NCBI RefSeq assembly: GCF_021049305.1
Contig: NZ_CP088081.1
Location: 2,418,001 to 2,482,000, forward strand
Length of the DNA: 64,000 bases
Direction of reading: 5' to 3'
Source of the DNA: Ideonella dechloratans
GTDB lineage: Bacteria > Pseudomonadota > Gammaproteobacteria > Burkholderiales > Burkholderiaceae_C
A model generated the notes under the pieces. The model did no database searches, was not told the DNA's origin, and was given only the letters and a program-made list of their open reading frames with translations. Of this stretch, positions 25,695-33,483 are shown one piece after another. Made by a program: the position numbers and the translations under genes. Position 1 is the stretch's first letter, and every line of letters starts with the position of its first letter.

Positions 25695-27215
25695 ATGACC
25701 AAACTCCAAGATCTCCGCGTGCGCCGGGTCGGCATCGACACCTGGCGCGAGAATGTCGCCTACCTGCACCGCAACTGCGCCGTCGTGCGCGCTGCCGGCT
25801 TCCAGGCCCTGTCCAAGGTGCTGGTCAAGGCCAATGGCGCGGCCATCAACGCCGTGCTCAACGTGGTGGACGACGACTGCATCGTCCAACCCGATGAGCT
25901 GGGTCTGTCCGAGGACGCCTTTGCCCGGCTGAACGTGGACGCCGGGCATCCGGCCCATGTCTCACCGGCCGAGCCTCCGCCCTCCCTGCCCGCGCTGCGG
26001 CGCAAGATCGCCGGCGAGCGGCTGGACCGCAAGGACCTGCACGCCATCATCCGCGACGTGGCCCAGGCCCGCTACTCCAAGATCGAGCTGGCCGCCTTCG
26101 TGGTGGCCACCAACGGCTACGACCTGGAGCGCGACGAGGTGCTCTACCTCACCGAGGCCATGATCGACGTCGGACGCCGCCTGGACTGGCAGCACGCGGT
26201 GCGCGGCGGCCCGGTGGTGGACAAGCACTGCATCGGCGGCATTCCGGGCAACCGCACCTCGATGCTGGTGGTGCCCATCGTCACCGCCCACGGCATGCTG
26301 TGCCCCAAGACCAGCTCGCGCGCCATCACCTCGCCGGCCGGCACGGCCGATACGATGGAGGTGCTGGCCGAGGTGGAACTGCCCTTCGAGCGCCTGCGCC
26401 ACATCGTGCGCGACACCAACGGCTGCCTGGCCTGGGGCGGCACGGCCGGCCTGTCCCCGGCGGACGACATCCTGATCTCGGTGGAGCGACCGCTGGCCAT
26501 CGATTCCCCCGGCCAGATGGTGGCCTCCATCCTCAGCAAGAAGATCGCCGCCGGTTCCACCCATCTGGTGCTGGACATCCCGGTGGGACCCACCGCCAAG
26601 GTGCGCTCCATCGACGCCGCACAGCGGCTGCGCAAGCTGTTCGAATATGTGGCGGGCGCACTGAACCTGCACCTGGACGTGATGATCACCGACGGCAGCC
26701 AGCCCATCGGCCGCGGCATCGGCCCGGTGCTGGAGGCGCGCGACGTGATGCAGGTGCTGCGCAACGAACCCGAGGCCCCCATGGACCTGCGCGAAAAGGC
26801 CCTGCGCCTGGCCGGCCGGGTGATCGAGTTCGACCCCGATGTGCGGGGCGGCGACGGCTGGCGCATCGCGCGCGACATCCTCGAATCGGGTCGCGCCCTG
26901 GCGCAGATGGAGGCCCTGATCGACGCCCAGGGGCGCCGCACCAGCCCCCCCACCCTGGGCGAGCTGACCCACGAAGTCTGCGCCCCGCAGGCCGGCGTGG
27001 TCCGGGCCATCGACAACCTGCAACTGGCCCAGGTGGCCCGCCTGGCCGGCGCCCCCCAGGTGCCCGGTGCCGGCGTGGACCTGCTGTGCAAGGTGGGCGA
27101 TGCGGTGCAGGCCGGCGCGCCGCTGTACCGCATCCATGCCCAGTACCCGGCGGACCTGGGCTTCGCCCGTGACCGTTCGGGCCGCGACAGCGGCTACACC
27201 GTGGGGGCGGCATGA
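25695..27215 (+). CDS. Thymidine-phosphorylase-family protein, AMP-phosphorylase-like
   Basis: 506 residues, much longer than E. coli DeoA (about 440) and matching archaeal AMP phosphorylases (about 503). Residues 1-95 form an extra N-terminal domain; the helical glycosyl-transferase part begins [21 protein letters not shown]. The phosphate-binding stretch is [20 protein letters not shown], followed by [20 protein letters not shown]. The C-terminal PYNP domain includes [10 protein letters not shown]. The archaeal enzyme makes ribose 1,5-bisphosphate from NMPs. The stop overlaps a PRPP-synthetase-like gene by 4 bp, suggesting linked phosphoribosyl metabolism. Substrate choice (AMP versus pyrimidine nucleoside) is inference. 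Confidence 0.87.
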
Positions 27216-28120
27216 GTCCGCGCTGGCCCTCCGCCACGGCCGTCCTGGCCTTCGAGGACGAGCAGCGCCCCGCCCAGGCCCTGGCCACGGCCCTGGGGCT
27301 GCCCTTGCGCCTCGTCCAGCGCCACCGCTTTCCCGACGGCGAACTCAAACTGACCCTGCCCACGCCACTGCAGGGCACGGTGCTGCTGTACCGCAGTCTG
27401 CACCAGCCCAACGAGAAGCTGGTGGAGTTGCTGATCAGCGCGCCCGCCGCACGGGCACTCGGTGCCGAGCGCCTGCTGCTGGTCTGCCCCTATCTGGCCT
27501 ACATGCGCCAGGACATCGCCTTCCACCCGGGCGAGGCAGTGAGTCAGCGCCACATCGCCGGCCTGCTGGCCGGGCACTTCGACGGCCTGGTGACGGTGGA
27601 CCCGCACCTGCATCGCATCGCCTCGCTGGACGAGGTGATGCCCGGCTGCCGCGCGGTCTCGTTGTCCGCCGCCGGGCTGCTGGGCCGCTGGGTCTGCCAG
27701 CACGTGGGGCAGCCGCTGCTGCTGGGCCCGGACGGCGAAGCCGAGCAATGGGTGCGCGAGGCGGCTTCCGCTTCGGGCTGCGACGGCGCCTGGTGCCTGA
27801 AGGAGCGGCATGGCGACCGCGAGGTGACGGTGCGCCTGCCCGAGGGCATCGACTTCCGCGGATGCGCCGTGGTGCTGATCGACGACATGGCCAGCACCGG
27901 CCGCACCCTGGTGGCCGCGGCTCGGCTGGCCCTGGCCGCCGGTGCCGCCTCGGTGGACGTGGCCGTGACCCACGGCCTGTTCGTCGGTGAGGCCATGGCC
28001 GAACTGGCGGCGGCCGGCGTTCGCCATGTCTGGAGCAGCGACTGCGTACCGCACACCAGCAATGCCATTCCCATGGCACCGCTGCTGGCGCAAGGGGTGG
28101 AAACGGTGCTGGCCGGCTGA
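27212..28120 (+). CDS. Ribose-phosphate pyrophosphokinase-like protein (divergent PRPP synthetase)
   Basis: 302 residues with the two-lobed PRPP synthetase fold. Matches to the family: [13 protein letters not shown] (F-x-D-G-E), [13 protein letters not shown] (usual Y-x-x-x-R-Q-D), VDPHLHRI (D-x-H), [12 protein letters not shown] in place of the K-R-R loop, and the PRPP-binding loop [17 protein letters not shown]. The loop has MAST in place of the usual IVDT, and the catalytic K-R region is altered. It is therefore not the housekeeping Prs. Overlapped with the AMP-phosphorylase-like gene, it may use or make ribose 1,5-bisphosphate or PRPP. Confidence 0.85.
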
Positions 28121-28211: not shown

Positions 28212-28286
28212 TGGTGGGCGGTGCAGGGTTCGAACCTGCGACCCCTGCCGTGTGAAGGCAGTGCTCTACCGCTGAGCTAACCGCCC
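28212..28286 (-). tRNA. tRNA-Val (anticodon CAC)
   Basis: 75 nt with encoded CCA. Acceptor GGGCGGT pairs with ACCGCCC, discriminator A. The anticodon stem CTGCC/GGCAG closes the loop TTCACAC with anticodon CAC (codon GTG); T-arm GGTTCGAACC is present. Second of two copies; differs from the upstream copy by one base in the D-loop. Confidence 0.97.
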
Positions 28287-28313
28287 GGTCTGCGGGTCTG
28301 GCTGAAGCGAATC

Positions 28314-28388
28314 TGGTGGGCGGTGCAGGGTTCGAACCTGCGACCCCTGCCGTGTGAAGGCAGTGCTCTACCACTGAGCTAACCGCCC
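28314..28388 (-). tRNA. tRNA-Val (anticodon CAC), second copy
   Basis: 75 nt with encoded CCA. Identical to the copy at 28212-28286 except for one D-loop base (AGTGGTAG here, AGCGGTAG there). Transcribed first; the 27-bp spacer between copies has no terminator, so they are probably one transcript. Confidence 0.97.
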
Positions 28389-32520: not shown

Positions 32521-33483
32521 TCATGCCATCGCTCCGATGAGTTTGCGCCGCGCCATCCACAGATTGGCCAGCGCAAACAGCGTGTGCAACTGCGCCGTGT
32601 TCTTGGCCAGCCCGCGGTAGCGCACCTTGATGTGTCCGAACTGGCGCTTGATCACTCGGAACGGATGTTCGACACGTGCCCGGATGCCCGCTTTGACCTT
32701 CTCGAGCTGCTCGGTGAGGGCCTCGATCGGTTTGGCCGGGTTCAGTGTGCGACGCTTGCCCGGCCGCATGGCGATGTTCCAAGCCACACCCACCCTGGCG
32801 TCCGGACGCTTGTCGGCACCTCGATAGCCGGCATCGGCGTAGACCTCGCGGTCGCTCGGGCGCACCAGGCTGTTGGCCTCGGTCACGTCATTGACCGCTC
32901 CGCTGGTGCCGCGCACGGTGTGGACCAGGCCCGATTCGATGTCCACCCCGATGTGGCACTTCATGCCGAAGTACCACTGCTGGCCCTTCCTGCTTTGCTT
33001 CATTTCCGGGTCGCGCTCGCCGCTGCTGTTCTTGGTCGAGCTCGGTGCGGCGATCAGCGTGGCATCCACCACCGAGCCGCCCTTGAGCATCACGCCCTTG
33101 GCGCTCAGCAGGTCGTTGACGGTCTGCAGGATCTGCGCGGTCAGCTTGTGCTTCTCCAGCACATGCCGAAAGCGCAGGATCGTGCTCTCGTCGGGCAGCC
33201 GCTCGTCCCAGCCTTCCAGGCCCGCGAACTCGCGGAACACCGGCATGTCGTGCAGCGCTTCTTCCATCGCCGGGTCACTCAGCGTGAACCATTGCTGCAT
33301 GAAGTGGATGCGCAGCATGGTCTCCGGCGAGAACGGCGGGCGGCCTCGCTTGCCATCGGGCAGGTACGGGGACACCAGCGCCACCAGATCCGACCAGGGC
33401 ACGACCTTCTCCATTTCGTCCAGGAACTCCCGGCGTCGCGTTCGCTTGGTCGTCTGTCCCAAACCCAGGCTGTGCTGCTTCAT
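32521..33483 (-). CDS. IS5-family DDE transposase
   Basis: 320 residues, close to IS5 transposase InsH throughout. The DDE catalytic triad is visible: first Asp in GGSVVDATLIAAPSSTKN (near 145), second in YADAGYRGADKR (near 215), Glu in RARVEHPFRVIKRQFG (near 270, the Y-x2-R-x3-E-x6-K-like block). The N-terminal DUF772-type domain includes PPFSPETMLRIHFMQQWF. No frameshift or stop; probably active. The only transposase seen in the window. Confidence 0.96.
   Translation of the reverse strand: MKQHSLGLGQTTKRTRRREFLDEMEKVVPWSDLVALVSPYLPDGKRGRPPFSPETMLRIHFMQQWFTLSDPAMEEALHDMPVFREFAGLEGWDERLPDESTILRFRHVLEKHKLTAQILQTVNDLLSAKGVMLKGGSVVDATLIAAPSSTKNSSGERDPEMKQSRKGQQWYFGMKCHIGVDIESGLVHTVRGTSGAVNDVTEANSLVRPSDREVYADAGYRGADKRPDARVGVAWNIAMRPGKRRTLNPAKPIEALTEQLEKVKAGIRARVEHPFRVIKRQFGHIKVRYRGLAKNTAQLHTLFALANLWMARRKLIGAMA

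Follow-up and report, generated by a model that had tools for sequence, protein, structure and literature searches.

Sequence and genomic context of the gene pair

The window, i.e. the 64,000-nucleotide stretch of the Ideonella dechloratans genome that was analysed, contains two overlapping genes, A and B, coding for a phosphorylase-like protein and for a protein resembling PRPP synthetase. In many bacteria and on plasmids, such genes are annotated as “thymidine phosphorylase” and “ribose-phosphate pyrophosphokinase”, and both labels are probably wrong or incomplete. A plausible reading, if a little short of probable, is that A and B are consecutive enzymes which take the ribose phosphate moiety from NMPs to ribose 5-phosphate. 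The features on which the analysis is based are compiled in Table 1.

Table 1. Features of the A–B gene pair (positions in the window)
Feature	Position	Strand	Basis or remark
Gene A, NMP (AMP) phosphorylase-like, PRK04350 family	25695..27215	+	506 aa; ORF, profile scores, model fold
Extra N-terminal domain of A, residues 1-94	25695..25976	+	4ga5 match; absent in ordinary thymidine phosphorylases
D-K-H-C-I-G-G of A, followed by IPGNRT	26220..26240	+	phosphate-binding/catalytic by homology
4-base ATGA overlap, A stop / B start	27212..27215	+	translational coupling likely
Gene B, PRPP-synthetase-like, PRK07199 family	27212..28120	+	302 aa; ORF, profile scores, model fold
B R99-Q100-D101, ATP-site residues, kept	27506..27514	+	invariant in 117/117 and 14/14 further B proteins
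B H132-L133-H134-R135	27605..27616	+	H132 as in PRPP synthetases; H134, R135 special to B family
B altered pyrophosphate (PP) loop G172-P-D-G-E176-A-E-Q-W180	27725..27751	+	Glu176 replaces Gly
B catalytic K197-x-R199, kept	27800..27808	+	alignment of B proteins
B ribose-5-phosphate loop D224-D225-M-A-S-T-G-R-T232	27881..27907	+	D224, D225, T232 invariant

Both open reading frames were recovered as an earlier, sequence-only reading of this DNA had placed them, and their overlap agrees with the translational coupling which it proposed. Co-occurrence of the genes, one of the checks it recommended, was assessed in a class sample of 274 genomes searched for both families. Fifty-five genomes contain A and B, five contain A alone and two B alone, and B lies directly downstream of A in 57 of the 62 A copies; three of 65 A matches (G139, G149, G261) were left out, being below the cut-off and matching only from profile position 93–94. 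By their coordinates, the A genes of three A-only genomes (G058, G123, G186) look truncated at contig ends, leaving G146 and G216; no A was found at E 1e-60 in the B genomes G145 and G232, which are 100 and 98% complete, respectively. Among the 80 nearest named loci, tblastn located B next to A in 79 (69 by an ORF-based count), the exception being L170 with B about 7 kb away, and two Azospirillum plasmids carry A together with an RNase gene (see below) with B not alongside. The pair also adjoins in distantly related bacteria. A and B almost certainly constitute a functional unit.

Gene A codes for a putative NMP phosphorylase

A belongs to the DeoA superfamily, and its model matches the AMP phosphorylase of Thermococcus kodakarensis (4ga5) over 505 columns (TM 0.88/0.91), as compared to TMq values of 0.67–0.74 for the listed thymidine and pyrimidine phosphorylases. 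Since this match spans 505 columns and is better than those to the thymidine and pyrimidine phosphorylases, the extra N-terminal domain is real; the first Pfam thymidine-phosphorylase domain starts at residue 99. The structural comparison suggested in the sequence-only reading hence supports its description of A as a DeoA homologue of 506 residues with the N-terminal domain of archaeal AMP phosphorylases. In profile searches, A scored 698.7 bits against NCBIfam PRK04350 (cut-off 434), a family labelled “thymidine phosphorylase”, and 473.8 bits against the AMP-phosphorylase equivalog TIGR03327, below its curated cut-off of 535. The scores against TIGR02643 (thymidine phosphorylase; 156.3, cut-off 570.7) and TIGR02644 (pyrimidine-nucleoside phosphorylase; 190.8, cut-off 409.05) both missed the cut-offs, and as the extra domain is present, the identification of A as an ordinary thymidine phosphorylase was rejected.

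Residues D176, K177, H178, G181 and G182 occupy invariant columns in an alignment of 13 A proteins. When A is aligned to 4ga5 and 1uou, the stretch after D-K-H-C-I-G-G reads IPGNRT in A and VPGNKT in 4ga5; a stretch beginning PGN[RK] and continuing for 11 residues, and a PADDI stretch, are common to A and 4ga5. Judging by family, fold and motifs, A very probably is an NMP phosphorylase, which would convert NMP and phosphate to the free base and ribose 1,5-bisphosphate.

Gene B codes for a PRPP-synthetase homologue with a rebuilt active site

B passes the cut-offs of PRK07199 (376.1 bits; cut-off 322) and of the PRPP synthetase subfamily TIGR01251 (172.5 bits; cut-off 113), and its NCBIfam name is ribose-phosphate diphosphokinase. 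Structural comparison with Prs, likewise suggested before, revealed a PRPP-synthetase fold with matches to 3mbi and 1u9y, which together with these scores and Glu176 in the PP loop supports the description of B as a divergent PRPP synthetase. All catalytic residues of PRPP synthetases that were checked (Lys/Arg, RQD, His, Asp, DD...T) are invariant in 117 aligned B proteins, representing 113 distinct sequences, and in 14 further ones. We take R99-Q100-D101 to be ATP-site residues, K197 and R199 to be the catalytic Lys/Arg pair, the His and Asp to bind Mg, and DD...T to form the loop. A “changed K-R region”, as noted from the sequence, was rejected, since K197 and R199 are invariant in 117/117 B proteins.

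The loop that presumably binds pyrophosphate is altered. Glu176, as well as H134 and R135, occurs in 117/117 and 14/14 further B proteins, W180 and H281 are nearly invariant, and the PDxES and DPHLHR motifs are found in 6/6 additional B proteins, including those of Criblamydia and Pontibacter. The window genome's own Prs as well as 1u9y, 4twb, 5t3o, 3dah, 7xmu, 6nfe and 3mbi have Gly at the position of Glu176; B lacks the Gly-bearing PP loop PDxG of the PRPP synthetases compared. The genuine changes lie outside the two loops reported earlier as altered; the Ser of “MAST” is found in 5t3o as well, and in two archaeal PRPP synthetases, 1u9y and 4twb. Because its active site is rebuilt, the real reaction of B probably differs from that implied by its name. 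PhnN is a P-loop kinase; its family, TIGR02322, is missing from the list of 13 families that B matched at E 0.001, and B as a PhnN protein was rejected on account of fold and family.

Neighbouring genes in relatives

Of 21 plasmid regions opened, 18 annotated, A-bearing regions form a selection of our own; outside it are L211 and L214 (unannotated) and L212, which has B and no A in the stretch. In 17 of the 18, a gene for an MBL-fold protein matching beta-CASP RNase (tblastn) belongs to the same run as A. The corresponding tblastn counts for an RNase gene near the pair are 10/40 class stretches and 2/80 nearest named loci, and a beta-CASP homologue occurs somewhere in the genome in 48 of 57 B genomes (B genomes alone were counted). 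The cassette phosphoketolase was identified by Pfam. Fifteen plasmids matched phosphoketolase at E 1e-60, with the gene located within 1.5 kb of A in 12 and within 10 kb in 13; as the query came from a cassette, these counts reflect one phosphoketolase subfamily. Phosphoketolase is near the pair in 1/40 class stretches, and neither phosphoketolase nor acetate kinase was detected near it in the 80 nearest named loci. At the genome level, phosphoketolase is present in 27/57 B genomes versus 45/217 others (kinship ignored) and absent from 30/57; most of the 27 have a form matching at E 1e-70 or better, the cassette form being at about 1e-37 to 1e-44.

Gene orders vary: A-B-RNase-x-acetate kinase-phosphoketolase in L099, phosphoketolase-glgP-ATP cone-RNase-A-B-acetate kinase in Criblamydia, whose phosphoketolase shares just 23% identity with the cassette queries, and arcA-argF-arcC-adenylate kinase-USP-P-type ATPase-B-phosphoketolase-RNase-A in Rhizobium rosettiformans, the single case of a neighbouring adenylate kinase. 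Relatives with these pathway neighbours are diverged, their A and B proteins being about 46–60% and 35–50% identical to those of the window, respectively. In nearer relatives (L148, L151, L152, L154, L155, L169), a gene for an NMP-nucleosidase-like LOG protein directly follows B. Taken together, RNase, phosphoketolase, acetate kinase, adenylate kinase and LOG protein point toward degradation of NMPs to ribose 5-phosphate, not toward PRPP.

A DUF1614 membrane protein is encoded near the pair at 14 loci, although three of these merely repeat contigs already counted; other recurrent neighbours are an SDR oxidoreductase, an ABC transporter and AspRS, the last two named by eye. None of these neighbours suggested a function for the pair. 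An apparent RNase-A fusion in L093 was not relied on, as the single open frame includes four N bases, one of them beside the A start. A defence system was also rejected: neither A nor the Criblamydia RNase had a match in PADLOC, and B and the ATP-cone protein had only weak partial ones.

In Bradyrhizobium diazoefficiens, bll3115 (MBL fold), bll3116 (ribose-phosphate pyrophosphokinase) and bll3117 (thymidine phosphorylase family) are listed as induced in microoxia in Table 2 of PMC6515984, and so is the phosphoketolase bll2518, encoded elsewhere in the genome. In the tabulated data of that paper, the trio belongs to the expanded list (log2 change of at least 1), outside the 62 most significant proteins, and carries no bacteroid-induction mark.

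The genome of the window

Phosphoketolase was not found in the window's genome, and its beta-CASP homologue is located about 250 kb from the pair. The genome codes for a standard Prs (C1:886895-887692) and for a RuBisCO large subunit (C1:59745-60665), and the model of ribose-1,5-bisphosphate isomerase gave no match. The earlier statement that neither isomerase nor RuBisCO is present therefore stands for the isomerase throughout the genome, and for RuBisCO next to the pair but not genome-wide. The search for regulatory signals gave no promoter-like site and one terminator-like site, versus 1.1 expected.

Proposed role of the pair

We lean towards a catabolic role leading from NMPs to ribose 5-phosphate. 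RNA breakdown would be the chief source of the NMPs cleaved by A, and B, with its catalytic residues kept and its PP loop rebuilt, would regenerate ribose 5-phosphate from ribose 1,5-bisphosphate. By homology, the reaction of B might be ribose 1,5-bisphosphate + AMP -> ribose 5-phosphate + ADP, which amounts to the PRPP-synthetase reaction run backwards with transfer of a single phosphate. That B transfers the 1-phosphate to an adenine nucleotide is, from its sequence, a tentative proposal; the sequences equally allow the reverse direction, and under standard conditions it is energetically unfavourable for AMP to take over the phosphate of a sugar 1-phosphate. In the diverged relatives, the beta-CASP RNase would provide the upstream step, and phosphoketolase and acetate kinase the downstream steps leading to ATP. 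In the organism of the window, where those partners do not accompany the pair, the ribose 5-phosphate formed would be fed into the normal pentose phosphate network.

In its most specific form, the proposal is rather doubtful: B would be a reversible ribose-1,5-bisphosphate:AMP phosphotransferase, derived from a PRPP synthetase by the change of Gly to Glu in the loop, which together with A conserves the N-glycosidic bond of RNA as ADP, and which together with the RNase, phosphoketolase and acetate kinase of diverged relatives forms a mobile, cross-phylum RNA-to-ATP pathway used when oxygen is scarce. If true, bacteria without the archaeal isomerase would own a route for using ribose 1,5-bisphosphate, a compound familiar mainly from PhnN and the pathways of archaea, the PRPP-synthetase fold would have been converted to a one-phosphate transferase, and in lineages with the longer gene run, genes induced at low oxygen would make sense as a pathway that converts RNA to acetate and ATP. 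The sequence-only reading did not recognise the route as characterised, and no description of it was found in the literature searched.

An alternative, which we consider somewhat unlikely, is that B provides the cell with one more PRPP synthetase of the ordinary kind, forming PRPP and AMP from ribose 5-phosphate and ATP, with A disposing of AMP or other NMPs and PRPP serving to salvage the bases which A sets free. The fold, the conservation of every catalytic residue checked, the passed TIGR01251 cut-off and the NCBIfam name of B agree with it, as does the scarcity of catabolic neighbours among the 80 nearest loci. However, every B checked has Glu instead of Gly in the PP loop, a standard Prs already exists in the genome, neighbours in diverged relatives are catabolic, and the annotated trio and a phosphoketolase are induced in microoxia (Table 2 of PMC6515984). 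PRPP would also be formed if B phosphorylated ribose 1,5-bisphosphate, the expected product of A, with ATP, providing an NMP-fed PRPP buffer; PhnN, as outlined in PMC9700705, shows that this reaction exists in bacteria. PhnN is above the cut-off in only 4/57 B genomes, and B could therefore replace it. However, in PRPP synthetases the attack is on the beta phosphate of ATP, a different geometry, the invariant Glu sits in the loop expected to hold the new distal phosphate, and the known neighbours are catabolic, which makes such a PhnN-like activity improbable. The conversion of NMPs via ribose 1,5-bisphosphate to PRPP, as first envisaged, is accordingly upheld as regards the two-gene unit and the resemblance of A to NMP phosphorylases, but its PRPP step is less supported, given the PP-loop Glu and the catabolic neighbours.

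The pair could also operate biosynthetically: B would use ADP (or ATP) to phosphorylate ribose 5-phosphate to ribose 1,5-bisphosphate, and A would join the latter to a free base. Such PRPP-free salvage would spend one phosphate bond instead of two and, with its favourable energetics, would suit energy-poor cells. Its sequence evidence is identical to that for the catabolic reading, but the pair's association with RNase, LOG protein, phosphoketolase and acetate kinase speaks for degradation, and we regard this reading, too, as improbable. By far the least credible is an archaeal-type NMP shunt, in which an isomerase would convert ribose 1,5-bisphosphate to ribulose 1,5-bisphosphate for carboxylation by a RuBisCO encoded in the same genome. 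The window's genome has the large subunit, RuBisCO occurs in 37/57 B genomes versus 94/217 others (odds ratio 2.4, p 0.0045, kinship ignored), and the isomerase model has matches below the cut-off in 39/57 B genomes, presumably to the related MtnA. Yet the isomerase is above the cut-off in 0/57 B genomes and without any match in that of the window, RuBisCO is absent from 20/57, and B would have no role; with no isomerase above the cut-off, the RuBisCO shunt was rejected as the main route.

Comparison with known systems

The closest counterpart of A is the archaeal AMP phosphorylase TK0352 (4ga5), which shares its full-length fold, extra N-terminal domain, active-site stretches and expected product, ribose 1,5-bisphosphate. 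In contrast to TK0352, A belongs to the bacterial family PRK04350, falls below the TIGR03327 cut-off, and is partnered with B, no isomerase partner having been found. B resembles the archaeal-type Prs proteins 1u9y, 4twb and 3mbi in fold, ATP site, K/R pair and the Ser-bearing ribose-5-phosphate loop, but differs from them by Glu for Gly in the PP loop, by the invariant H134/R135 and by the near-invariant W180/H281. With the ribose 1,5-bisphosphokinase PhnN it may share a substrate, whereas its fold is that of PRPP synthetases. The trio bll3115-bll3116-bll3117, raised together, corresponds to RNase-B-A by annotation and locus tags alone, but appears in the expression table of PMC6515984 as an entry without assigned function. 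The pentose bisphosphate pathway or NMP shunt, which PMC9700705 portrays for archaea and some bacteria, has the same entry, namely phosphorolysis of NMPs to ribose 1,5-bisphosphate. Unlike that shunt, in which RuBisCO is the exit, the A–B pair, with no isomerase above the cut-off, would lead to ribose 5-phosphate and, in some relatives, on to phosphoketolase.

Conservation of the gene pair

The AMP (NMP) phosphorylase-like gene (A) and the PRPP synthetase-like gene (B) of Ideonella dechloratans overlap by stop and start codon (ATGA) and form a conserved unit, as their description as a cassette in the sequence-only reading had implied. In an even sample of 274 genomes of the class, A was found in 60, B in 57 and both in 55, at E values of at most 1e-60 and after exclusion of three matches that are ordinary thymidine phosphorylases. 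Of the 62 A copies in this sample, 57 are followed immediately by B in the same orientation, and in 79 of 80 named loci B comes immediately 3' of A. B occurs alone in genomes G145 and G232, and A alone in G146 and G216; three further A-only genomes appear truncated. At the limits used, 115 and 102 of 72,556 plasmid records contain A and B, respectively. The nearest named locus is that of Ideonella benzenivorans (identity 91% for A, 83% for B). No sigma-70-like promoter was detected at the pair in a promoter scan.

Coordinates of features in the window and on contig C1 of the same genome
Feature	Location	Strand	Remarks
Small ORF 5' of A	window, ends 25658		reads like lipoprotein
A	window 25695-27215	+	506 aa
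B	window 27212-28120	+	302 aa
Two tandem tRNA-Val(cac) genes	window 28212-28388	-	just 3' of B, opposite strand
ORF resembling IS5-type transposase (by eye)	window 32521-33483	-	320 aa
RuBisCO	C1:59745-60665
Standard PRPP synthetase	C1:886895-887692		separate from B
beta-CASP homologue	C1:2698491-2699924 (= L201:9192-10625)		away from pair

Family and predicted structure of A

The A protein passed the NCBIfam models PRK04350 (698.7 bits, cut-off 434) and TIGR02645 (591.2 bits, cut-off 434.6), and stayed under the cut-offs of the AMP phosphorylase model TIGR03327 (473.8 bits, cut-off 535) and of the thymidine and pyrimidine phosphorylase models. A search of the genome with PRK04350 (E 0.001) yielded A and one weak match, taken as TrpD. 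The solved protein nearest by sequence is 4ga5, titled AMP phosphorylase; the AlphaFold2 model of A (pLDDT 89.1, pTM 0.86) matches it over 505 columns with TM values of 0.88/0.91, in line with the proposed relationship to archaeal AMP phosphorylases, as compared to TMq values of 0.67-0.74 for the listed thymidine and pyrimidine phosphorylases. According to the alignments, A and 4ga5 share PADDI and a motif beginning GG[IV]PGN[RK] (11 further residues not shown), whereas human thymidine phosphorylase differs there. The NMP phosphorylase of T. kodakarensis forms ribose 1,5-bisphosphate from AMP, CMP or UMP and phosphate (PMC9700705), and was once misannotated as thymidine phosphorylase (PMC8376864).

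The rebuilt loop of B

B passed PRK07199 (376.1 bits, cut-off 322) and TIGR01251 (172.5 bits, cut-off 113), and its predicted structure (pLDDT 94.4, pTM 0.91) has the fold of PRPP synthetases such as 3mbi, 1u9y and 7pn0, which agrees with its reading as a divergent member of that family. Our alignment comprised 117 B proteins, representing 113 distinct sequences, together with the genome's own standard PRPP synthetase and three solved ones. R99, Q100, D101, H132, D174, K197, R199, D224, D225 and T232, which we take to be positions used by PRPP synthetases, are kept in all 117; the changed K-R region claimed previously is contradicted by the invariance of K197 and R199. H134, R135, E176 and W180 are likewise invariant, unlike in the comparators, as is D202, which among the comparators occurs only in 5t3o; H281 is kept in 116 of 117. 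Residue 176, Glu in B, is Gly in the genome's own enzyme, 1u9y, 4twb and 5t3o, and, from reading of alignments, in the PRPP synthetases 3dah, 7xmu, 6nfe and 3mbi. A second set of 14 B proteins (13 from plasmid records, one from genome G007; 36-50% identity to the B protein of locus L099) has E176, H134, R135 and D202 throughout, and W180 and H281 in 13 each. The motifs PDxES and DPHLHR recur in six more B proteins, including those of Criblamydia (Chlamydiota) and Pontibacter (Bacteroidota). E176 lies in the so-called pyrophosphate loop; judging from sequence, an acidic side chain at this position would speak against a 1-diphosphate product, and would be compatible with a 1-monophosphate, the expected product of A.

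Gene neighbourhoods

In the 80 named loci (tblastn; flanks up to 10 kb, some shorter), a beta-CASP RNase gene occurs near the pair in two (L149, L160), a gene of the NMP-nucleosidase-like LOG family in nine, and phosphoketolase or acetate kinase genes in none; thus, among the closest relatives of the window, the pair is mostly without companions. The LOG protein, encoded directly 3' of B in L148 (12389-13291), L151, L152, L154, L155 and L169, passes TIGR00730, shows weaker resemblance to NMP nucleosidases, and may be an alternative NMP breakdown enzyme. At 14 loci (e.g. L090:8203-8853), three of them second copies of the same contigs, a DUF1614 membrane protein is encoded on the same strand two genes past A, directly after B.

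Of 40 stretches from the class sample (38 with A), ten have the RNase gene near the pair, and one, L099, phosphoketolase and acetate kinase genes. The RNase, which comprises MBL, beta-CASP and RMMBL domains, is encoded immediately 5' of A in L079, L086, L091, L092, L097 and L098, just past B in L099 and, on the opposite strand, in L095, and four genes away in L065. At L093:7516-10377 it shares one open frame with A, albeit an insecure fusion, since the frame has four N bases. A phosphoketolase gene adjoins A-B in G007 (L215).

We examined 21 plasmid regions, chosen for taxon spread and, in the case of the last six, also in part because of phosphoketolase or an unusual phylum. In the 18 annotated A-bearing regions, the same run contains B in 16 (all except two Azospirillum plasmids) and an MBL-fold gene in 17 (all except Novosphingobium pNL2), each of the 17 matching the RNase in tblastn. 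A gene annotated "xylulose 5-phosphate 3-epimerase" passes Pfam phosphoketolase models; its best NCBIfam matches are phosphoketolases, all far under cut-offs. Phosphoketolase matches (E 1e-60) were found on 15 plasmids. Twelve of these have A at most 1.5 kb away, 13 have it at most 10 kb away, and 14 carry it anywhere on the plasmid; the fifteenth (Alteromonas) had no A among the matches listed. As a cassette gene served as query, these counts cover one subfamily. Runs read A-B-RNase-x-acetate kinase-phosphoketolase in L099, phosphoketolase-glgP-ATP cone-RNase-A-B-acetate kinase in Criblamydia, whose phosphoketolase is just 23% identical to the queries, and arcA-argF-arcC-adenylate kinase-USP-P-type ATPase-B-phosphoketolase-RNase-A in R. 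rosettiformans.

An ATP-cone protein is encoded directly 5' of the RNase in Criblamydia and Pontibacter (L217:7789-8631, L218:1972-2817). Its portion past the cone reads as PDDEXK nuclease-like, and the Criblamydia protein weakly matches the PADLOC CARF-PDDEXK model; it is possibly a nucleotide-sensing nuclease. Genes for rbbA, annotated as ribosome-associated ATPase, lie two genes past the RNase in Azospirillum (L198, L206) and 5' of the cassette in Pseudorhizobium (L197), raising the question of a tie to ribosome turnover. Copper/heavy-metal resistance genes (P-type ATPases, multicopper oxidases, efflux) often surround the cassette on plasmids (L195, L196, L199, L200, L208-L210, L213, L217, L219, L221, L222).

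Genome-level co-occurrence

In the class sample, with phylogeny ignored, 27 of the 57 B genomes encode phosphoketolase, as compared to 45 of the 217 genomes without B (odds ratio 3.4, p 0.00014), mostly as a form whose score on the Pfam model far exceeds that of the cassette form. Of the same two groups, 37 and 94 genomes, respectively, encode RuBisCO (odds ratio 2.4, p 0.0045; phylogeny again ignored). A beta-CASP homologue is present in 48 of the 57 B genomes, the only ones counted. A genome search of I. dechloratans found no phosphoketolase; the best match of its beta-CASP protein, whose homology to the RNase covers C1:2698554-2699900, is the type VII CRISPR Cas14 model, far under the cut-off (366.2 versus 800). 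The ribose-1,5-bisphosphate isomerase model had no match in this genome, and matches under the cut-off, tentatively taken as MtnA, in 39 of the 57 B genomes.

Published expression and proposed function

Table 2 of a study on Bradyrhizobium diazoefficiens (PMC6515984) gives protein and transcript values of 2.9 and 15.4 for bll3115 (MBL fold), 4.4 and 7.7 for bll3116 (ribose-phosphate pyrophosphokinase), 2.1 and 5.1 for bll3117 (thymidine phosphorylase family), and 4.3 and 8.2 for bll2518 (phosphoketolase), which we take as log2 protein change and transcript fold change, respectively, at 0.5% oxygen versus oxic conditions. From their place in the text, the four genes appear to be among the 71 in the expanded list, outside the 62 most significant proteins; in the accessible part of the source they are unmarked for bacteroid change, NifA or direct FixK2 control. 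That bll3115-bll3117 are the RNase-B-A trio is suggested by how the genes are named, by their adjacent locus tags, and by a Bradyrhizobium plasmid on which the order is A-B-RNase.

Beyond the conserved unit, folds, conserved residues, loop change and gene neighbourhoods established here, and the induction of annotated A, B and RNase counterparts already in print, we propose that A would make ribose 1,5-bisphosphate, and that B would use it, giving back ribose 5-phosphate and passing the phosphate to AMP. This transfer would correspond to the PRPP synthetase reaction reversed (PRPP + AMP -> ribose 5-phosphate + ATP), less one phosphate; in R. rosettiformans, the adjacent adenylate kinase would convert the ADP to ATP and AMP. 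However, the standard energetics of such a phosphate transfer to AMP are unfavourable, and the two genomes with B but no A, as well as the scarcity of catabolic genes next to the pair in the closest relatives, also argue against the mechanism.

The families of A and B are both known; in the open-licence papers searched, their combination and the rebuilt loop of B are undescribed, although an earlier description elsewhere is possible.
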